NCBI RefSeq assembly: GCF_025602895.1
Contig: NW_026516267.1
Location: 210,068 to 274,067 of the forward strand
From: Polychytrium aggregatum
Taxonomy: Eukaryota; Chytridiomycota; Chytridiomycetes; Polychytriales
DNA length: 64,000 nucleotides
Direction of reading: 5' to 3'
Positions within the stretch are counted from its first letter, which is position 1. Each line of letters begins with the position of its first letter. This document shows, piece by piece, positions 104-29,655 of the stretch. The notes beneath the pieces were generated by a model. That model did not search any database. It saw nothing but the letters and a program-made list of their open reading frames with translations, and was not told the DNA's origin. The translations under genes were made by a program, and so were the position numbers.

Positions 104-1586
104 GTGAGTTGGAGGCAGGCTGATCTGTGTGGAATCGCCAATGTTGCCGGGAGCCCATGCTGTACCATACCGTGGCAGCGATGTCGGTGCATGCACTCAG
201 TCGTCGTTGACAATGCCGCCGTGCTCACCCGAAATCCGTCGCCCACTCGGAGTGCGTGATGTAGAGTTTGTCTGTGTGCTTGCCCATGCTGCTGTCGGGG
301 GAGGTCCGTGGGGTCTGGGTATGCGGCTGGATATGTCAGATACGAGATGCGGTGTGCGTGCTGCTGACGCCCCTCTGCCAGATATCACTGTTGGGTCTCG
401 TCTGCGGATCGTTGCGGATCGTTGCAGATCGTTGTGGATGGTGTCTGATCGTCGCTGGTTGCTGTGTGGACGGCAGACAAACCGGGCTGGCTCGCGCTCT
501 CCAACCGGGACGGCTCGTCGCGGCTGGATCCGGACCGATCCGGTGCACTCGAGCCGCCGCATATTAAAAGTTCATTTGTGCTTCATTTCCTCCAAGCGAG
601 GGCCGAGAGGGCGAGAGCGCCAGCGAGGCGTCCCGAGCGAGGCCGTCCAGCGAGAACCAAACCCGCCGACAGCACGCTCCGTGGCCTTTGCGTTTTCTTT
701 CTTTGGCTCCCTCCCTATCGGATTGCGTCTGAAGCGAGTCGGTTTCTCGTCAGGTAAGATGCGCCGCCATCGCCGCCATCGCAAACACCGCAAGCATCAC
801 CGCCAACGGTGTCCGCACGAGCGTCGTCCGCTGTCGTGCTGGAACCAGAGTCGGCGTGGATGTCTCGACCGCGGGCTCCTCAAGATACACCCACACCTGT
901 CCCAGCCGCGTGCAGGCGAAGCATTCCAATTCGGCTTCTCCCAGAGGCAGCAATCGGCATGCCGCCGCAGAGGAGACATAGCTGGATCGGGCGATATGGG
1001 GCAGAACGAATGCGTCGTCTCTGGATATCGCGGCTCGCTGTCGCGCGGTCGTCAGCAGCATGATCTATGGCAAGCTGTCGACTCTGCTCGCATCTGCAGC
1101 CGCGCCGACGTCATTGGAAACAGACGGATCGATCGACTCCTTGGAGGGAAACACCGAGGCCCTGCATGGATCACCCGGAACGTGCATGGTTCATCCGGAG
1201 CTCATGGCCGGCGGCCGTTCGCCCTGGAATTCGCGTGCCCATCGACGTCCCATGATGTCCACTTGTTGCTGATCAGTCTGTCATGCCTCTCTCTTGTATC
1301 CGCCCCAAACTCCCGACTGACTCGATGGATACATGCCTGCCGCCCGGCTACTCTCTCTCCCTCTCCGACCACGGTCAACGACCCTTCGTCACCTTCGACA
1401 TCAACACCCTCTCCAATTTCATCGACTCTGCTATACGATTGCCGTCTTCGATCATGGGCCCTCGATCCTGATCGACTACATCGCATCTGACTAAATCGGA
1501 TTGGACCCCGATGCCGATACTTGCCCCACGACCGTCTGTGCGCTATCTTTTGCCGTGGCCATGTCGATGCTGGGCCCGCAGACAAG
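104..1586. other. Unassigned stretch at left edge
   Basis: Several overlapping open frames on both strands run through here, including one of 453 codons from base 129 on the plus strand, but none shows a recognisable domain. A plus-strand frame ending at 1471 and a minus-strand frame at 750-1061 with a hydrophobic tail could be exons of an unknown gene. The three reading frames look about equally protein-like, so I assign nothing. Short repeats of a gatcgttg(c/t)(a/g)gatcgttg kind lie near 410-440. Confidence 0.4.
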
Positions 1587-3589
1587 ATGTTTGCCCGTCA
1601 AACTTTGCGCTCGGCTCTGCGAGCAAGCACCATCCCTTCGGTGAAGGGTCGCTCCGTTTCCTCTTTGGTGCCCTCGACCGCCCATACCGCCAAGAATGTC
1701 ATTTCCTCGTTCGAGAACCTGCAGTCCAAGAGAAACGTACGTTGAGCTATGAATCCATCTCGCCGTCGCACCACTATGAAACTCGCAAAGCATTCCTCCC
1801 ATTAGCGAACCTGGCGTCATCATTGGGAGCGACAGACTGGCAACACAGCCGCTTCGCCTTGTCTGCGACTCGCCTCACTCAGTGCCATCTAACGCTGCTT
1901 GCATGCATTTTGCCCCCATCAGGCCTCGCAGCCCACTCTTCAGATGAACCCCGATACCTACACCACCACGACTCGATGGTTCGTTCCCCCAAAAGTCCGT
2001 CAGAACGCCAAGGTCTTGGGTACGATAGGCCGCCGACCAGCTTCCTGGCTCTGGAGAGTGGCGATTGAGGCGTGGCGTCAGACATCGCCGCATGCATCGA
2101 GGCTGTGTTGCGCAGCTTCGCCAAGTGCGCCAACCTCTCGCGTCGGTGTGATGATGTCTAACTGTTCTGTCTATGGCGGCGATGCCCTCAACAGAGGTCC
2201 CTTACTACGAGGGCGAGGAGCCCGCTCTCGAGAGCTTCACCCTCAACTTTGGTCCGCAGCATCCCGCTGCCCACGGTGTGCTCCGTCTCATTCTGGAGCT
2301 GAAGGGTGAGGTCATTGTGCGCGCCGACCCCCACGTCGGCCTGCTGCACCGTGGCACGGAGAAGCTGATCGAGTACAAGACCTACCTCCAAGCCCTCCCC
2401 TACTTTGATCGTCTCGACTACGTCTCGATGATGTGCAACGAGCAGGCCTACTCGCTGGCTGTCGAGAAGCTCCTCAACATCGACATCCCCATCCGCGCCA
2501 AGTACATCCGTGTCCTCTTTGGCGAAATCACCCGTATCCTCAACCACATTATGGCCACCACCACCCACGCTCTCGATGTCGGTGCCCTGACCCCCTTCCT
2601 GTGGCTCTTTGAGGAGCGTGAGAAGCTCATGGAGTTCTACGAACGTGTCTCGGGTGCCCGCATGCACGCCGCTTACGTCCGCCCTGGCGGTGTCTCTCTG
2701 GATCTGCCTATCGGCCTCCTGGACGACATTTACCAGTGGGCCCTGCAGTACGGTGGCCGCATCGACGAGCTGGAAGAGTCGCTCTCCAACAACCGTATTT
2801 GGAAGGGAAGATTGATCGGCATCGGCAAGGTCACTGCCCAGCAGGCCCTGGACTACTCGTTCTCGGGTGTCATGCTGCGAGGCTCCGGTGTCGCCTGGGA
2901 TCTCCGCAAGGAGCAGCCCTACGACGGATACGAGAACTTTGAGTTCGACATCCCCGTCGGCACCAACGGCGACTGCTACGACCGTTTCCTGTGCCGTGTC
3001 GAGGAAATGCGACAGTCGCTCCGCATCATCAGCCAGTGCATCAACAACATGCCTGGCGGCCCCGTCCGCGTCGACGACGCCAAGATCGCTCCTCCCTTCC
3101 GCGCCGACATGAAGACCTCGATGGAATCGCTGATCCACCACTTCAAGCTGTACTCTGAGGGCTACTCTGTTCCTCCCGGCGAGGTACGTACTGTCCGCGC
3201 AGAGGTGTTGGCGGTCCTGTGTCGCCGCTCTGGGCTCGCGAGCCGTCGGTCCAGCAGTCCGCAAAGCATTCCCGACTAACTGTGTACGAAACGCCACTTT
3301 GGCTGGTCTGCGCCTCCTCTTGCAAACATTCTCGGTCGTCAATCGGCTTCTGTCCTGGGGGACACTTGGTTCGCATCCAAAGACCTACACTGCCATCGAG
3401 GCCCCCAAGGGCGAGTTTGGCGTCTACATCGTCTCGGACGGCTCCAGCCGCCCGTACAGATGCAAAATCCGCGCTCCCGGATTCCCCCACTTGGCTGGTG
3501 TTGACTTTATGGGCAAGGGCCACTTCATTGCCGATGCCGTAACAATCATTGGTACCTGCGATGTTGTCTTTGGTGAAATCGATCGCTAG
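1587..3589 (+). CDS. NDUFS2: NADH:ubiquinone oxidoreductase 49 kDa subunit (NDUFS2/NuoD)
   Basis: Core subunit of mitochondrial complex I; it helps form the quinone site in the peripheral arm. Modelled exons are 1587-1736, 1923-2019, 2195-3183 and 3383-3589, giving about 480 residues, which is normal for the family. Exon 1 encodes an Arg/Ser-rich, acid-poor leader starting [14 protein letters not shown], typical of a mitochondrial presequence. The main exon carries the family hallmarks [40 protein letters not shown] and YVRPGGV. The last exon ends [12 protein letters not shown], the usual C-terminus. Introns keep phase (0, 1, 0). The start of exon 2 could instead be 1944, which would remove seven residues. 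The enzyme identity is certain; the leader exons are inferred from splice signals and phase. Confidence 0.95.
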
Positions 3590-19659: not shown

Positions 19660-22600
19660 CTATCGGAACCAATCCATCAGACGATCGAGAGTGAATGCCG
19701 AGGTACGAGCGGTGTTTCTGGACTGCTCAATCATCTCATGCAGGTAGTCGCTCAGCTGCCTGTCTTGCTGGCTGATGCGGACGCCGCGCAGCGACATGAC
19801 TGCTCGGAATACGTCCACAGCAACACTAAAGCAGACAAACCAGGAGAATGGAAATCGATAGAGGGCATGTCAGAGTCGGCGTCGCTTAGGACTGCAAGCC
19901 TGCGTTCCCAGTCCAGAACGTGTCCCAAGGTTTCATGTGCGCCAGGCCACCAACCTGATCTTGGAATCGATTTTTGCCTGTGCCATCGGGTTGACAGGCC
20001 CCGATACCCCAAGTTGCTGCCTCAAGTCGAGCGACTGCCCCTCCTGGATCTCGAGCTCCTGTTGGCAGGTTAGAAAAATATGCGATGGAATGAGCGCTCG
20101 TGCATCCAGGGGTGCGATATAGTCAGATGCTGCTCCGATAGGCTCTTTCCGGGAACCGGAGAATGGAGGTACAAGGATGCACTCCGGCGGAACAGAGTTA
20201 TTAACACCGCAGCTATGAACCAGCGACTGCACTGGGATAAAGTATGGTCGGCGCTGGCTACCTTGATGGCCTCGAGGATCATGGCCTGGCGCAAAGCGCA
20301 TATGCACTCAAAGATGGACTGATAGAGGTGTCTCACGACCGTCAAAGTGGCGTCCGGATTCAGTTCGCACTGGAAGCTAACAGGCTGGACCCGCCTCTCG
20401 GCTTCGGAGATAAGGAACTGCTTGACGACCTGGAGCGACAGAGCCGACTCGCTAAAGACGGACAGCAAGCCCTTCCTGTCCAACAGACGGCGGCATCAGC
20501 CGGACCTGCGTTTTGGATAGTGCTCATGTGTGGTCAAGACGCAGCAGTGGCTTACCGAAGCACAAGCGTCACAAACGATGGGAGATAGCTGCATCGGAAG
20601 TAGTAGTGCACCTCGTCTGTGTGTGCCTGAATCGGTCTGTTGTCGGCGAGGAGTCACCAGATTGGAGATGGCGGCGTTAGTGGCGCAGACTCTATTCGGC
20701 CGCCACGGTGGAAGATGCAAACGCTGGCACCTTTCTGGGATTCCGTTGAAACACAGGGAAAGCCATGAGTTGAGCTCGCTCAAGGACAGTTCGCTGCTCA
20801 TCGAGAGGAAGCTTACACTCCTGAATCATGAACAATTACGACTGGTCAGCCGGCATCGAGCATCGCGGACGGCGTGCCGTGGGTTGGCATGAGTGCCGGC
20901 ATGGCGAATCAAGAGCCCATCCCGGCAAACCGAATCAACAGCCGATCAATGTGTCTCTCTGCTATCTGTAGGCGTGCACCGCGAGTATTTATCTGGTTTG
21001 CCCCCCTCCGCCATATGGCCTACCTCTCATCTCCCGGAATGGAACTGATTCGTTCATGCAGCGACATGGGCTTGAAGGTAAATGCAAAGCGACGGCACTT
21101 GCTGTTCTCCATAGCGACGTAGAGGGAAAGGACGCCGTGCGAGTTTTCGGTTGGCATGACCTTGTGTCGGCCGGCCGAACGGATGTGATCACAGATAATT
21201 AACAGCGCTCAGTGTCTCAGAGATCGATTGACCCTCTCATCTTCCGTTGACACCGCTGTGCATCACCGCCTACCTTGAAAACAAGGCGGCGGGTCTTGGT
21301 GGGTGGCCTGTAGGTGGCTAGAAACAGATTTCCCTGGTCCCGATTCTGACATCAGATTGTTGTCAATATACCTGTCGATTGTGCGGGCCAGAGTGTCCCC
21401 AGCCTTTGAGCTGCACAGGATACCTCTTTATCAATCGGAGATATCGACAGCGCGTTCGTATCCTCTGCTTCATCGGCAACGGTGAGCTCAAAGTCGGCAC
21501 GGAGAATGACGAGCGTCGCAAAAGAGGCGCTCACTTCGATCGAGAGCGTGTAGAGCGACTCTTGGCAATCAAAGATCAACATGGTGTTGGTGTCCTTCTG
21601 TGTGAACAAGGAGGTGATCGAGTGGGAAGCAACAGGTTTGGTCGTGGAAGCACTGATGAGCAAACATCAGAGCCATGAGATGCTCATAGTGGCTGACTCG
21701 CAGTTGCAATGCCAGTACTGCGGATGTCATTGGAGAGTCAGCACTGCTCTGCTCAGCTGCCCCTCACAACCCACCTTTGCATCCGAGGGTTCAGTAGGCA
21801 CTGCCGATGCATCTCCGTCGGCAGGTGCTCCATTCAGCGCCTCTACAAGCGGCACCGAGCGGGTCTCTGCGGTCAAATGGAATGTCGTCGTCGGCACCCC
21901 GAGAACGTTTGTCTGGGTCGAGAGCACTGAGCCCGAGAGGGAAGTGTTGGGAGCGAGGGACTGGTTGTGCAAGCCGCCACTACCGTCACTGGCGACGAGA
22001 TCACCAAAGTCGATCGTTGCTATTAAGCCTTGCAGCGCTGAAACAGCCTGTGAGGTGACTTGGTCTTTGGCATCCGCTCCTGATCCAGGCGCATTCTGAC
22101 AAGATATTCCAACAATACGACCCGTGAAGGTGGTTGCCAACAGCCGAGGCAGGAAGCAGTTGCCTTCTTGGATAGCCAAGTTTGTCACCGATTCGCCAAG
22201 TGACGTGGCAAAGAGGAGGACGGGATCAGGCAGCGCCAAGGAGTAGCACTGCACCAGTCCATTTGCATATCCAATGGCCAGGACGCTGTCGCTTCCTTCG
22301 TGCGTTGGATCGGCCAGCGTGAGAACGCTGACAGCCTCGCTGCTCTTGATGATCCACAGCTGGTGATAGGCTTCCGGAGTGAAGTGAACACAGTGAATCG
22401 TTCCAGCGGCTGTTCCAGCGACAATGAACCTGTGGGTGGGCGAGGCGGCAAGCGCTTGGATCAGCTGCAGTCCGGCCTCGGTGAGATCAAGCCGCCCAGG
22501 GTAAGCTCATAGGTGCCTCACCTTCCGGGGAACTTTGCATGGTCCCTATGCCGCAACTCGGCCAGGCACGTCGCAGTGTGCTCCAGATATACATCAAGCA

Positions 22601-23686: not shown

Positions 23687-24200
23687 GATGCTGCAGCAAA
23701 CAGATCCGAGATCGGGTGCTCCTGATCAGATGCGGAATCAGTCTGAGCAATATGGAATGAGATGCCTTGGCCGATTGCTGGCCTGCCGACCGATTCTGGA
23801 AATGGGCGCCAGTGGCGGGCGCCTATCACTATCAATTTTTTCCGGCCCCTCGCGGCTGCTCATCTCGGTCACCTGAAAGTCACGTTGTATGTGGCGCAGC
23901 AAAAGTTGGAATCCGGCCATGGTCGGTTGACGGCATTTGGTATCGTCTTGAGCCGATTGACGGTGGTGGTGGGCGATTGGTGTGGAGGAATGACCAATTG
24001 TATCATTGTTGGAAGCTCCACTCCGATTGCGGACAAGAACCACCACCATCTGAATCTCTCTGGTTGGAAACCTAGTCAAGCGTGGCTGTGTGTCAGCGAG
24101 ATGACATGATCGTTTGGCTATCAGGCAAGACTCACCTTGACAAGATGTCTTCCCACGACTGATTGAGCGAGCGATGCGTTTCTGGATCTGAATCAAGGAC
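23687..24200. other. Spacer between BBS7 start and Fanzor-like remnant
   Basis: BBS7 5' flank. Plus-strand frames at 23762-24109 are open but show no recognisable domain; they may be decayed N-terminal parts of the Fanzor-like element. Stops interrupt all three plus frames before 24200. Confidence 0.4.
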
Positions 24201-24206
24201 GCCACT

Positions 24207-24990
24207 GTGAGCATCACTCCCTGCCCAAAATGCGCTGGATTTGAGGAGATTCTTTCTTCCCCAAGGGCAGAACCAGCCATTGTCGCTATTTTCTCGCCAG
24301 ATGGCTCCCCGCAAGCGAAAGGTACCACCCAGGCGACCAAGTGGATCCAGAGCACCCATAAGAACCTTGATCTGCAGCAATGGATGAGCACCACACCAAG
24401 TCCCAAGATCCCTGGGTTGGCTTCCTTCCTGCAATACATTCGCCATGTGTTCGATGGAGACATGCTGGACAAACAGCTGTACTTCAGCCTGACCCGGCGA
24501 CGGCGATTCAAGCGACTGGATCTCCACAGCAAGCGACAGCGCACCGTCCACGAGATGTGCAAGCAAGTCATCGACCAGGCACCAAAGGAGACCGAGGTGG
24601 TGATTGCCTTTGGGAATGCCTCGTGGAAACAGGGGAAGGGATATGCTTCCAGTCCCAGGAGACTCAGGTTTGCCAAGTACTTTGAGCAGTTCCACCACCA
24701 CCAGAGACGACCACCAGACCGATCCGTCTCCAAGATCCATGTGTGCTCGGTGAACGAGTTCAACACATCCCAGGTGTGCTCACATTGCCAGGAATTCAAG
24801 CGACTTGAGTCACCCGAGTATCTTGATGTCGAGAAGCCACACTTTGTCCGGAGCTGTGCAAGCTGCCATACGCTGTGGGATCGAGACATCAATGCGCCAG
24901 GAATATGATCTCGGTATGCCAGTCGATCATCGCCACAGGAGATCGACCGGGTGTATTCAAGACTGTGCTTCCCAAACCAACAAAACAAAG
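24207..24990 (+). pseudogene. Fanzor-like (eukaryotic TnpB/OMEGA nuclease) remnant, frameshifted
   Basis: Fanzors are RNA-guided RuvC nucleases of eukaryotic transposons, related to TnpB. The open frame 24207-24908 carries the C-terminal half: VVIAFGNASWKQGKGY, then VNEFNTSQVCSHC (RuvC-II Glu plus first zinc-ribbon pair), a second pair in FVRSCASC, and WDRDINA (RuvC-III Asp). Around 24895 the frame slips: the original frame reads APGI and stops, while the +1 frame continues ARNMISVCQSIIATGD and on through GVFKTVL, the expected family ending. One base therefore seems lost. No intact RuvC-I Asp region or N-terminus is visible upstream, and stops lie in all frames before 24200. I call it a degraded copy about half the usual length. 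An intron at the slip site is the alternative, but no GT-AG pair fits. Confidence 0.72.
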
Positions 24991-25055
24991 AGATTGCCAA
25001 CGAAGACAGGAGTGCAATGCCATGGCCTGCCCGCTGGGCCGACAGTCAGTCAACG

Positions 25056-25075
25056 GGCTTCAGATATCTGAAGCC
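25056..25075. repeat. Perfect 20-bp palindrome downstream of the Fanzor remnant
   Basis: GGCTTCAGAT followed at once by its exact reverse complement. It lies about 150 bp past the frameshift of the Fanzor-like remnant and directly abuts a second inverted repeat. Confidence 0.95.
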
Positions 25076-25105
25076 AGAAAGGGGAAGTGTCCCGTTTCTT
25101 TCTGG
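25074..25105. repeat. Second inverted repeat / hairpin
   Basis: Arms CCAGAAAG (25074-25081) and CTTTCTGG (25098-25105), with an inner GGG/CCC pairing and a small bulge. It overlaps the end of the 20-bp palindrome by two bases. Confidence 0.8.
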
Positions 25106-25109
25106 ATAG

Positions 25110-25645
25110 ACTGTAAGTATCTTGCACTGTTCCTTGTGCATTTCGACAGTGGATGCCGGGTCGCCCATATTCTGGGCAGTCCACTTCGGGGTTGCCATCC
25201 CTCTTGGGATGGTCGATGGGAGGTGTTTGACTCCCTTGTGCAAAGTGTGTGTGTGTGCCGGCGAGAGGCTTCTCGCCTTCCCTCGGGGGTCTCTCGCCAG
25301 AGACTGCTCTTCTCGCCGACCGAGGTGGCTCCGAGAGCGCGTTTTTTCGTTCTCGCTCATTTTATTAACAAGAACTTTTTTCATAGTGTATTTCCGCGCG
25401 AAAGGGCAAGCCGACCAAGCCAATACACAACACCAGTCCCAGTCCAGCGAGGGTCGCGACAAAACGAGGACGGTGCAGCCATATTGCTTGGACAGATGAA
25501 TGGGCATGAATGTATTGCTGGAAAGGGAGGGGTGAAAAACTAGAGCGCAGGATGGTCTCGGAATCGAAGCATCCCGCCCAAGATTGCACAGACTATGTAC
25601 TGATATTACTGCTTGGAGAAATAGAGTGAAAATCAATGTATACAA
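25110..25645. other. Intergenic 3' flank
   Basis: Between the Fanzor remnant hairpins and the stop of the minus-strand CCHC gene. Contains a (GT)n-like run near 25246 and an A/T-rich patch at 25344-25390. No gene is recognised. Confidence 0.5.
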
Positions 25646-27596
25646 TTAAGCTCGGAGTTCAACTTGGTCGTCCTGGTCTGTTTCGTCTTCGACAGCGGAG
25701 GGTGTCGGTTGTGTAAAGGCCTGTCGAGCCGGGCAATCCCGCGCAACATGGCCCATGCTGTCAAGAGGCATAGGGCGAGTCAGTGACGATTGCGGGAATA
25801 GATCGGCGGTGGCGTCAGAAGCAAATCAACGGCGGGTCCAGCGGTTGGATCGTGAACCAGTCTGGCTCATGGCTGGCTCTTTGTTGTCGGCCGTCAACGA
25901 AACCAGGACAAGAAAGTTACTCACTCGCCACAGCAGAAGCAGCGCCGAGCTTGGGGGCAGTCCTTGGAAATATGGCCAGTTTTGCGGCAGAACCAACATA
26001 GAATAGGGTTTCGGCAGAACTTGGCCGTGTGCCCAGGCATGCCGCAGCGCAGACAGATCACCTGCATCGCAGTCGGGTTTGGCTGATAAAGTAAAGGCGG
26101 TTGGGCAAACGGGGCGCGGTAGTATGCTTGAGTCGACGGATATCCTGCATTTGATGGGCAGTTTCGAGCCATATGCCCGGGTCCGTTGCAGCGACGACAC
26201 ACCACAACGGGCTTCAGTGAGCCTGTTGGTAGACTCGACAGGACAGGCGATATTTGCGCGTCTACGTCAGTTGCGGGCTCGCCGATATACGATGGAGTCT
26301 TGAACGGGACATCTTGAGTGCGAGGCGCTGCGAAGGAAATCGTGTGGGCAACGTCATGCTGCTTGGAGATGGATGGTTCCGTTCCCACGCCAAACGAGTA
26401 CCGGTTCAGGTGAGAGGGGCACTCTACAGATATGGCCAAGAAGTTAGTGCAAACGGACTGCTGGAGGGGATGGAATAGCAGTGCGGGCGGAGTCTGGGAT
26501 GAATGGGACCCAGTGCGAGTGGATCTGGGGCGAGTGGAATCTGGTGCAAGGATGCTGCTCCAATCTTTGGCTTGGGATTAGGGATCGGGAACGGCGTCGA
26601 CCACGCTACCTCGTGCATAGTGGCCCTTGACGGAACAGAGATAGCAGATAGCTTGCGCCCGGTCGGCGCTCTTGGCCAGGATCTTGAGTGGGCAGTCCGA
26701 CGACAGATGGTCCTGGCTGAGAGCGCGGCCGGTTTCGAACGACAGACGACCCGAACGAATCGATATCGGTTCGATTCGATTCGAGAGTGGGAGGTGGTGA
26801 GTTACGGCGATGAGCAACAGAGCTATATGACCCGCAGTTGCTGGATGCTGGATTCCGGATGAGCATGGCCAAGATACACTGCAGGCCAGCACCGGTGCCA
26901 TGTTCATCAGTCCTGGGCGGCATTTGCTTCATGATGGCCAAACCACAGCAGCGGACACACCGGGCTCACCTCTGGCAGCGGAAGCAGCTCTTGGGTGCCC
27001 GAGGTTGAGGACATTGGTTTGAATTATGGCCTAAGCACACGCACCATCGGGTCAGGATGCGAATGCGAAACAGAGCGACCATGCTCGAGCTGCGAGCCTC
27101 CGCAGGGAACATCGACAACAGCTGCATTTGCCACACATACCAGGCTGCTTGCAGTTGTAGCTGATCGCACCGAAGGAGGACCAATGGCGCATTGGATAAT
27201 GGTGTCAGCAGGCGTCGCCAGATCGATGCAGATTTCCAGATGGGTTGGCGCATTCAGAGGCAGGCCAAGACAAATGGGCGATCGGCGAGCGGGATGGTCG
27301 TGGATATGCTCGCAAGCGCCGCAATGGAGTAGGCTTCCGACTGCAAACCGAGCAACATAAGCACCTCTGCTCAGACACGGATGCACTGCTCGGCTCGATC
27401 CCGATGCCCCGCCAACACACTCAAGAGAAGACTGTAGGTACCATAGCGGGACTTGGCTCTGGAGTTGGCACTGGCGAGACAAGTGTCCGCGCTCACCACA
27501 GACGAAGCAGTAGTTCTTTGGGCTTGGGCCCGATGCGGGATTGCGTCCTCGCCCGTATGCGGCCTGCATGGGCTGACTCGGCTGGAGGGGCTGCAT
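25646..27596 (-). CDS. CCHC zinc-knuckle protein with eight knuckles (CNBP/Gis2/Byr3-like)
   Basis: Single-strand nucleic-acid binding family acting in translation and RNA control. Exons (minus): 27596-27442, 27160-27141, 27030-26970, 26716-26610, 26423-25925 and 25757-25646; all phases agree (about 317 residues). Eight CX2CX4HX4C knuckles are visible: CFVCGERGHLSRQC, CYNCKQPGHNSNQC, CFRCQSQDHLSSDC, CYLCSVKGHYAREC, CRRCNGPGHMARNC, CLRCGMPGHTAKFC, CWFCRKTGHISKDC and CFCCGDMGHVARDC. Four introns fall within knuckles, which fixes the joins. The second exon is only 20 nt. A linker of about 90 residues separates knuckles four and five, and the tail is acidic. The start chosen is MQPLQPSQPMQ; the frame stays open further upstream through a hexamer repeat, so the true start may lie earlier. 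Confidence 0.87.
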
Positions 27597-28120
27597 TGGA
27601 AGAGGGCCCGACGGTGGGGAGATACGGATGCAGATGCGGATGCGGATGCGAATGCGGATGCGAATGCGAATGCTGATGCGAATGCGAATGCAGATGGGCG
27701 GCAGGTCGGGCTTCTTCTGGCTGTCCTGACAGGAAATGCCCGTGACAGACCCGGCCAGCACACGGCCGCAGGCTGGCCGGCTGGCAGCTGGCTGGCCACG
27801 GCAGCGGTTAGGTAAGCAGCACGTGTCGCACTCGATCCACGCAAGCCACACAAGCCACACGCCTCTCGAGGTCACATGTCGATGCAGGGCTATAAATGTC
27901 GCGCAGATCGCGATCTGCTCTTTCGCCTCCGGAAACAACGACCAGGTACAGCAGAGACATGTCCTCTCCCGTGGAAGCCGTCTTTCTAGAACCTGTGCAA
28001 GAGCAACAGGCCCTGCAGAGTGTGTTGTGACGGATGCGCTACCGCCCGTCCCGCGCTGCTCCGTGGGCCGACAACCCCTAGCCGTTGTGCGTTGCTTGAT
28101 CGGCTGCTGCGATGGGCCAG
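27597..28120. promoter_or_regulatory. 5' flank of CCHC gene / 3' flank of PEX10
   Basis: Holds the hexamer repeat and no recognised gene. Both neighbours are on the minus strand, so this is the promoter of the CCHC gene. Confidence 0.4.
27626..27695. repeat. ATGCGG/ATGCGA hexamer microsatellite
   Basis: About eleven imperfect six-base units just upstream of the proposed start of the CCHC gene. In the gene's frame it would read alternating Arg-Ile on the minus strand, which is unlikely to be protein. Confidence 0.9.
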
Positions 28121-29655
28121 CTATGCGAGATTGTGGATCCGATAGAGCTGCGATAGCTCTGTGTGCTGCCGGCAGAGCGGGCACTCTGCCTGCCGACGCG
28201 ATCGAGGGTGGGGGTCAGGGGAGCGCCAGAGACGGCATTCGTCGATCGCTGGTAGCATCTGTGCTGGTGCTGGTGCTGGTGCTGGTGCTGGTGCTGGTGC
28301 TGGTGCTGGGGTGAGTGGACTTACCCTCGTTGAGCACCACTCGGCGATGCATTCCCAGCAAAAGACGTGTCCGCAAGACGTGGCAGCGGGATCTCTTCGC
28401 CTGGAAAGACACAGGGTGCACTTTTGCGACTGCGGGACGACGCCGCTCTCGATTGCGCCTTCGCTGGAGCACATAGCAGAGGAGCAGGTGAGCGGGGATG
28501 TCTGCAACGCCGGCAACGCAGTGCGATGCGATGCACAGATCCTTTCGTGTTCATTCCTCGCTGCAAAGGGATCGCACCTCTCGGGCGATGATGCACCCGT
28601 ATCCGGCGTTGCATCGAGTGCCTCTGCGGCTGTCGGCCGGCTCAGCTCCAGGATCTTGGAAATGGCCATCTGCAGAACGATGATCACGCCGAGGATCTCA
28701 AATGTGACGGGCTCGTTCCCAGGCTCAAGTTGGTGTGTGACGATCTGCGACGTCGCTGGTTAGTCTCTGTCCCTGGCGCAGGCATTCCCGAAAAACCCCC
28801 ACTTCGATAGCCAGCTCCACAAGCGCTTACATAGCGGATGTTCGAGAATCGGTTGGAGAGGTTGTAGTGGGCCCCGAAGAAGTAGAAGACAGCCATGTGG
28901 AACAGCCGCACATCTTGTCTGGTGACTCTCTTGAGCCAGGCCAACAGGCCGCCGAGGCGGGACAAGGGCGACGCCGTTGGCCCAGATGCAGCGAGTCCTG
29001 GGATGGATGCAGTGGAGCCAATGGCATTAGCAACGTCGGCGATGCCGGCCAGGGAGCCAAATCGAGACGCATATGCGGCTCACAGGCATCACATGCATCG
29101 CAGGCATCACAGGGATCGCACCGTATCGTACCTCGCATCGCAGCGGATCCTCTGGCCAACGTTGCCGCTCGGTCGAGGGCATACGGAGAGACAATGTGCA
29201 GCAGGAACCACAGCGTCTTGACTTTAGTGCTGGGGAATGTCATGGACTTCTCCTCCACGCGCATGATGTCGCAGTACTCTTCGCCGAGTGTCTGGAGCCC
29301 TGGTTTGGCGAATCAGACACCGCATTGTCAGAACCTTGGCCTGCTTTCGACCCTTCACCCGCATCTCGATAAGCAGTAGTCAGGGAGTCGATCTTGGCTG
29401 TGGACGACACTGACCTTTGGCTGTTGTCAGGCCATAGTAGAGCAGTTCCGAAACCAGAGCTACCTCTGGGCCAAACCGCAGCACCCAGCGGGTTCCCAGG
29501 ATTTGGGAGAGCAGCGAATGGATGCGCTCCTGCAGCGATTCCTTATAGTAGGCATCCTTTTGGTTGGAACGGATGATGTCGGATTGGGATGCAAATGGGA
29601 AGGTGTCGAGGGGCGCATGTGTGGCCGGGACAGGCGGCTGGACGGCGGCAGCCAT
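28121..29655 (-). CDS. PEX10: Peroxin 10, peroxisomal RING E3 ligase
   Basis: Peroxisomal membrane RING ubiquitin ligase that works with PEX2 and PEX12 to recycle PEX5. Exons (minus): 29655-29415, 29299-29132, 29078-28831, 28744-28325 and 28189-28121, about 381 residues, all in phase. N-terminal family motifs are FPFASQSDIIRSNQKD and EVALVSELLYYGLTT; then TLGEEYCDIM, a hydrophobic FYFFGAHYNLSNRFSNIRY, FEILGVIIVLQM, and the C3HC4 RING from CTLCLSRRRDPAATSCGH through CWECIAEWC to ECPLCRQ. The last intron splits the RING between its sixth and seventh zinc ligands and carries a GGTGCT repeat. The gene ends soon after the RING, as usual. It shares a 280-bp divergent promoter with MAP1. Confidence 0.94.
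28261..28309. repeat. TGCTGG hexamer microsatellite in PEX10 intron
   Basis: Eight perfect copies in the last intron of PEX10, next to the donor at 28324. Confidence 0.95.

Follow-up and report, generated by a model that had tools for sequence, protein, structure and literature searches.

We found that the window, by which we mean the whole stretch of 64,000 nucleotides of Polychytrium aggregatum DNA analysed here, holds one member of a multiplied repeat family at 23827–25388. Judged from its sequence, this member is very probably (about 0.85) a non-autonomous CACTA-like transposon with the dead C-terminal end of a Fanzor1 gene as its cargo, the gene having arrived in a nested mariner-Fanzor element that was later internally deleted. 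The element has readable ends with target-site duplications, occurs in many copies, contains relics of another transposon and has a broken coding frame. The window copy would thus record how a Fanzor gene can change vehicles. The mariner form, the scarred CACTA-like form, deletion derivatives and gene-free ghosts are all present in one genome, so that the order of events is testable. The features are as follows.

23824–23826, no strand: left copy of the target-site duplication, TAT, which flanks both sides
23827–25388, +: whole non-autonomous CACTA-like element, CACTATC...CATAGTG (from aligned ends and end k-mers)
23827–24142, +: CACTA-like left arm; the match to the mariner-type elements L069 and L070 begins only at 24143
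23977–24186, +: 5' block poor in shared variants (4, beside 19 singletons)
24143–24195, +: relic of the 3' end of a mariner (IS630) transposase, with DVFPRLIERAMRFWI and a stop at 24144–24191 (53 bp, 88.7% identity to L069/L070)
24301–24321, +: remnant of the start of the Fanzor (MAPRKRK), not in frame with what follows and like the start in full-length frames
24321–24327, +: junction of the internal deletion, with CACC microhomology (~1.87 kb missing relative to L071)
24324–24908, +: Fanzor1 C-terminal remnant without RuvC-I (82–97% amino acid identity to 149 other listed matches)
24895–24896, +: one-base deletion that shifts the C-terminal end (2 of 37 aligned copies)
24988–25115, +: candidate omegaRNA scaffold that runs up to the relic mariner terminus (predicted fold, z −2.5)
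25088–25115, +: remnant of the right terminal inverted repeat of the mariner (matches the left end of L070 in inverse over 30 bp)
25116–25388, +: CACTA-like right arm with TCTCG/CGAGA motifs and a GT repeat; the smallest ghosts keep its last 175 bp
25147–25236 and 25267–25356, +: 3' blocks with few shared variants (p = 0.009 and 0.018 against the frame)
25389–25391, no strand: right copy of the target-site duplication, TAT

Copies and ends of the element

We searched the P. aggregatum genome (64.7 Mb, 418 contigs) with DNA, protein and domain queries. The DNA search scored the best 40 of 1426 candidates, the window copy among them, and the 39 other listed matches showed 90–95% identity, most of them across the same ~1565 bp. 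When the window frame was used as a protein query, the best 150 of 1243 candidates were scored; the short copies among the listed matches had frames of mostly ~290–315 aa, and long copies were also present, at least 38 of the listed matches lying in stop-free frames of 768–1011 aa (counted by hand). With PF07282, the best 150 of 663 candidates were scored and all 150 were over the cut-off. The many copies in these searches rule out a single dead copy. The preliminary description had implied intact relatives elsewhere in the genome; full-length uninterrupted frames were found, as were the ends of the copies, which give the unit as the 1562-bp element at 23827–25388. In viral contigs, 41 stretches fitted a pattern and tblastn confirmed none of them as a relative.

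The terminal repeats of the element begin with CACTA, reading CACTATC at the left end and CACTATG, in inverse, at the right end (CATAGTG), and TAT is duplicated outside. We counted 145 genome matches to the left-end 18-mer (up to 2 mismatches) and 126 to the right-end 24-mer (up to 3 mismatches), compared with 0 for the reversed control in both cases. From 100 listed left ends (of 145) and 100 listed right ends (of 126) we obtained 63 pairs, of which 3 spanned 278–665 bp, 30 spanned 1550–1639 bp, 3 spanned 2175–2614 bp and 27 spanned 3343–3767 bp; 37 listed left ends were unpaired. Target duplications were counted over 42 copies, 10 of which were second copies of the same site; 21 of the 32 sites left had both ends readable, and 16 of these 21 independent insertions showed a perfect 3-bp duplication. 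We also looked in the genome for an unoccupied target of the window copy; a query made by joining its two flanks matched nothing but those flanks themselves.

The three smallest elements (L073–L075) contained no Fanzor domain and kept the first 89–202 bp and the last 175–434 bp. They occupy two sites, L073 and L074 sharing flanks; a perfect duplication surrounds L075 and is missing from L073 and L074.

Several further arrangements were seen around these ends. Three short-class copies at two sites (L015, L034 and L037) hold 0.6–1.05 kb of extra DNA near element position 143–220. Facing left-type ends lie ~1.1–1.3 kb apart at C51:45753(+)/46807(−) and C142:26633(+)/27897(−), and these pairs are perhaps CACTA-like elements without a Fanzor. 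In L010, the T-run of a CACTA-like right end gives way at once to a mariner-type left end, which takes the place of the terminus: here a mariner has inserted into a CACTA-like element. In the window, zf-CCHC zinc-knuckle frames lie just 3' of the element (25921–26574 and 27024–28184, both −), and a neighbouring frame at 21727–22506 (−) matches the BBS7 beta-propeller (E = 4.9e-8), pointing to a ciliated or flagellated host.

The Fanzor frame

The open frame at 24192–24908 (+, 238 codons) matched PF07282 (Cas12f1-like_TNB) with E = 4.7e-8, exceeding the curated cut-off, and this was its sole Pfam match at E up to 1, with the TNB domain at ~24732–24896. Weak NCBIfam matches to guided_TnpB, IS200_TnpB and Cas12f2 were under their cut-offs, and PDB sequence searches (phmmer and profile) returned no significant Fanzor relative, the best match in one of them being a Cas12m at E = 0.18. 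The Fanzor fingerprint is described as DPG at RuvC-I and a relocated Glu six residues before a zinc finger, a C4 ribbon and the RuvC-III D (Yoon 2023, PMC10711439), and the Fanzor1 motif as D-X(125-275)-[TS][TS]-X-X-C4-X(5-50)-RD (Bao & Jurka 2013, PMC3627910). The window frame reads E189FNTSQV followed by C..C, a second C..C and WDRD; that is, the relocated Glu six residues ahead of the zinc finger, the C4 ribbon and the RuvC-III D are present, as they are in the full-length element L071. The RuvC-II Glu, the two Cys pairs and the WDRD block that had been pointed out earlier were therefore all found, and the Fanzor-like identity proposed with them was borne out, as Fanzor1-like, by the TNB profile match and the motifs. 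DPG is absent from the window copy because RuvC-I has been deleted. All four aligned full-length proteins (L069, L070, L071 and L072) have DPG, the glutamate, the C4 ribbon and WDRD; in L071, RuvC-I reads GIDPGVG with D582, and the Bao & Jurka motif runs from D582 to TS780 with ~197 residues between, a D-to-TS spacing that the window fragment cannot satisfy. These motifs indicate that the window frame is the C-terminal remnant of a Fanzor1-type nuclease without RuvC-I, and the copy should yield no working Fanzor or nuclease.

L071 and L072 are full-length Fanzor elements that match the window element at both ends, and each is flanked by TCA on both sides. Relative to L071, the short class lacks ~1.87 kb. 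The deletion junction carries CACC microhomology. In the 37 aligned copies the start MAPRKRK, similar to that which begins the full-length frames, no longer shares a frame with the C-terminal part, according to the majority frame and visual inspection of the alignment. The alignment comprised 37 of the 42 copies, L015, L030, L031, L034 and L037 being omitted for inserts or truncation; L055 and L061, at one site, have also lost the ATG. Alignment thus indicates that the non-autonomous class of 1.55–1.64 kb derives by internal deletion from full-Fanzor elements of 3.3–3.8 kb.

The base said in the preliminary description to be missing near 24895 is indeed missing, in 2 of the 37 aligned copies (the window copy and L016, at another site) and perhaps in a third, C212:141152, which lies outside the alignment and was judged by match extent. 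The view of the locus as a degraded, dead copy holds insofar as no nuclease is possible; however, the frameshift also occurs in another copy and comes second to the main lesion, the deletion of RuvC-I and the N-terminal half shared by copies of the short sub-family, and the copy is not a lone one but belongs to a multiplied non-autonomous class. Its supposed recent age is probable, as the window copy has 1 private substitution among the 37 aligned copies, although exchange between copies can mask changes.

Long antisense frames mirror the Fanzor frame at 23738–25045 (−) and in L069–L072 (256–507 aa where listed), in full and short copies alike, and are probably an effect of codon composition.

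Mariner relics and a probable change of vehicle

The Fanzors of L069 and L070 share 86% DNA identity with L071 and sit behind an IS630/Tc1-mariner transposase. A full frame of this transposase in L004 matched DDE_3 (E = 6.6e-23) and IS630 (E = 2.3e-35), and its C-terminus is DVFPRLIERAMCFWA. The right end of L069/L070 reads ...TGTCCCGTTTCTTTCTGGTTTGACTGTA, after which the flanks are unrelated, and the left end is its imperfect inverse. With TA at the ends, matching terminal repeats and a DDE_3/IS630 transposase, these relatives have the features of Tc1/mariner elements. Among the 150 listed TNB matches, 49 had a same-strand DDE_3 match upstream of them (48 at 2566–2910 bp, one at 3460 bp); the controls, downstream and on the opposite strand, each gave 0 (150 listed TNB matches and 150 listed DDE_3 matches). 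A further mariner-type family, of which 14 right ends were read, has another form of the repeat, followed by flanks that differ except in two same-site pairs. The left flanks of mariner-type elements end in TTTA in 4 of 4 cases read (L070, two in L004, and L010), which could be an insertion preference or an adjacent motif of the nuclease.

The window copy has neither a mariner transposase of its own nor two flanking mariner ends; all that it retains is a ~15-codon tail and, inside the unit, a single right end. The tail corresponds to the last ~15 codons of the mariner transposase, and 25088–25115 gave its inverted match to the L070 mariner left end with E = 0.003 in a two-sequence search. Both relics also occur in L071 and L072. 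Because mariner relics lie inside CACTA-like ends and mariner-Fanzor elements are common in the genome, the Fanzor seems to have left a mariner vehicle for a CACTA-like one. In the simplest history, a Tc1/mariner (IS630) element with a transposase and a Fanzor1 would have nested in a CACTA-like element; its transposase would then have eroded to the last ~15 codons, with the mariner right end retained internally, while mobilisation passed to the CACTA-like ends. The CACC microhomology would later have been the site of a deletion that removed RuvC-I and the N-terminal half, giving rise to the short class, which then multiplied.

Probable mobilisation by CACTA-like ends

CACTA/EnSpm transposons are recognised by a CACTA core at their ends and a 3-bp target duplication. 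Both are found here, and in the history outlined above the element would be moved in trans by a CACTA-type transposase acting on both arms. The CACTA-type transposase domain PF02992 had 29 matches in the genome; one of the 29 had a listed element end within 20 kb, ~12 kb off, and none was tied to these ends. Counting against the CACTA reading, the terminal inverted repeats measure only ~7 bp and 5 of the 21 readable insertions have no perfect 3-bp duplication. In addition, the left-terminal 120 bp, with 25 singletons and 39 shared variants, did not exceed the frame in conservation (p = 1); this argues against a strictly constrained left end, though a transposase should need it.

The ends might instead belong to another superfamily with 3-bp duplications, or the element might be moved by the Fanzor itself. 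The very short inverted repeats, the missing link between any transposase and these CACTAT ends and the unconserved left-terminal 120 bp all suit such an explanation, as does Spizellomyces punctatus, in which no transposase was reported within Fanzor repeats either, in the text available of PMC10432273. We nevertheless consider it unlikely. The CACTA core together with the 3-bp duplication fits CACTA, as do the TCTCG/CGAGA motifs (6 in 175 bp of the right arm, a raw count with no shuffle control) and the occurrence of PF02992 in the genome. The Fanzor-less derivatives also keep both ends at two sites, with one perfect duplication, although deletion in place could form them as well.

Probable exchange between copies

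Four-gamete conflict among 154 two-state sites was 0.34 below 20 bp, 0.64–0.68 at 20–100 bp and 0.73 beyond, and the observed local value was reached by 0 of 1000 permutations. Ten same-site pairs were recognised by their shared left flanks; summed over these pairs, 26 of 17,577 flank positions differed, compared with 276 of 16,254 element positions, i.e., ~11-fold more inside the element. The best reading of this excess appears to be ectopic gene conversion. Assembly or polishing errors at a repeat could also produce a mosaic and excess divergence, and we regard this as a doubtful but real alternative: high-copy repeats are prone to such errors, and many of the contigs resemble unmerged haplotypes. 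However, in the nine aligned same-site pairs, 215 of 299 differing sites had both states in at least two other copies (299 differences by multiple alignment, 241 by pairwise alignments), and in one pair all 17 differences were confined to ~210 columns. A Fanzor2-like repeat, examined in three same-site pairs, showed no clear excess in the protein part, which also speaks against error. In the further mariner-type family, the two same-site pairs leaned the same way, differing at 6/142 element vs 0/161 flank positions and at 3/143 vs 1/158, on little sequence. Whether RNA-guided cutting drives gene conversion among transposon copies could be addressed through such same-site pairs.

Variation within the frame

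Over 24324–25258, a region that extends beyond the likely protein end, singletons comprised 26 synonymous, 73 non-synonymous and 4 stop changes against a neutral expectation of 29/65/6%, and are near neutral. Variants found in two copies (25:33:1, synonymous to non-synonymous to stop) and in at least three copies (68:81:3) were both rich in synonymous changes, and neither of the two shifted control frames showed a synonymous excess in shared variants. The synonymous-rich shared variants point to selection or to exchange with intact copies.

If selection were responsible, the short element might encode a functional truncated Fanzor-like protein, e.g., a nuclease-dead regulator. Many short copies are open for ~290–315 aa, and the 68:81:3 ratio, counted past the likely protein end, is confined to the true frame. 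However, the usual ATG is out of frame in 37 of 37 aligned copies, two of which (one site) have also lost it, the singletons are near neutral, the frameshift occurs at two different insertions, and strong exchange between copies could import the synonymous excess from full-length elements. The out-of-frame start and the near-neutral singletons led us to judge a selected mini-protein very unlikely.

The 5' block at 23977–24186 had 19 singletons and 4 shared variants, compared with 67 and 103 in the Fanzor frame (Fisher p = 9.8e-5); like the two 3' blocks, it was delimited after looking, and the copies are non-independent. Within it, 23955–24055 forms an imperfect palindrome (z −5.4 on the plus and −4.3 on the minus strand against shuffles), a stretch also picked after looking.

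A possible guide RNA

Fanzor1 RNAs sit at the right end of the element and extend ~15 nt past it, this extension being the guide (PMC10432273, PMC10711439, in the parts available). The homologous terminus in the window element lies buried 273 bp inside, which raises the question of how a guide is chosen once the guide-defining end has become internal. Folding of the 3' flank in search of an omega-type guide RNA had been suggested. A candidate scaffold lies there, at 24988–25115; its alignment gave a weak consensus fold and no covariation support. In some copies the 128 nt before 25115 took a three-stem-like fold (z −0.2 to −4.1, 10 sequences folded). The region was no more conserved than the frame (p = 0.42), and a search for known RNA families gave 2 matches, both far under the gathering score. 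Beyond 25115, the CACTA-like copies are much alike, with few alleles and short indels. With a buried terminus and a downstream sequence this similar, the guide may be nearly fixed, the RNA may reach the new end, or the RNA may have been lost.

It is possible, though we hold it only tentatively, that the guide RNA of the CACTA-like Fanzor runs to the new right end, so that the variable outside flank is the guide. The strongest predicted fold in a sliding scan lies at 25060–25300 (z −2.9 to −4.7, three 120-nt windows, both strands), where the two 3' blocks with few shared variants are also found, and in published work the terminal repeat and the target-site duplication are predicted to form part of Fanzor1 RNAs (PMC10711439, in part). 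Against this, the mariner-type elements terminate where the relic lies buried here, the right arm may hold transposase-binding repeats instead, and no more than 175 bp of it survives in the smallest ghosts.

A further reading, which we think improbable, is that nesting fixed the guide. The scaffold would still end at 25115, nearly the same internal guide (starting AGTATCT...) would be shared by the CACTA-like copies and aimed at empty copies of the new vehicle instead of each insertion site, and full-length Fanzors served by RNA from dead copies would cut the family and drive the gene conversion of the same-site pairs; if so, an RNA-guided nuclease would have turned into an engine of homogenisation and homing across the family. 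Two exact patterns for empty targets of a fixed internal guide gave 1 and 0 genome matches, and the single match was a truncated filled copy, not an empty target.

Relation to known elements

Like non-autonomous CACTA/EnSpm elements, the window element has a CACTA core, a 3-bp duplication and derivatives formed by internal deletion; unlike them, it has a Fanzor as its cargo, and no transposase is linked to its ends. Fanzors are known from many transposon families, and the Fanzor1 vehicles described include Helitron, IS4-like, Sola and MuDr elements (PMC3627910), which resemble the present case in that an unrelated transposon captured the gene. CACTA is not among the vehicles in the available part of that survey, whereas here both vehicles and the relics of the switch occur in one genome. 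The same source describes PGv-1, PUl-1 and PUl-4, with a mariner transposase and Fanzor1, or Fanzor1 alone, between mariner ends with TA duplications. L069, L070 and L004 of P. aggregatum resemble these elements; in contrast, the window element has CACTA-like ends and only relics of mariner. Spu-1 of Spizellomyces punctatus (Saito 2023, PMC10432273, in part) likewise comprises full, partial and Fanzor-less elements with related ends, ghost elements having been described there already, and its RNA lies beside the right end, as does the candidate here. Spu-1 differs in having 30-nt inverted repeats after CA, compared with the CACTAT ends, 3-bp duplications and internal mariner relic of the present family. 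In the literature searched, as far as its text was available, we found no CACTA-like Fanzor vehicle with a buried mariner end, which other Fanzor surveys may hold, no Fanzor linked to CACTA or EnSpm (an alga paper naming Fanzor and EnSpm links neither in its available part) and no description of how a Fanzor changes its vehicle.

A separate gene of 477 aa was noted in the same genome. Its frames lie at 280–1710 (+) of L003 and 1486–2916 (−) of L002, the two copies lying inverted to each other on C124 at a distance of 5.1 kb, and the same arrangement occurs on C379 (L006 and L007); shorter relatives are present in L001, L005 and L008. The N terminus is that of an IS607 TnpA (NCBIfam transpos_IS607, E = 4.3e-12 over residues 13–81), the genome having only 2 weak partial resolvase matches, and the rest of the protein, which is Fanzor2/TnpB-like, carries both DPG and the relocated Glu.
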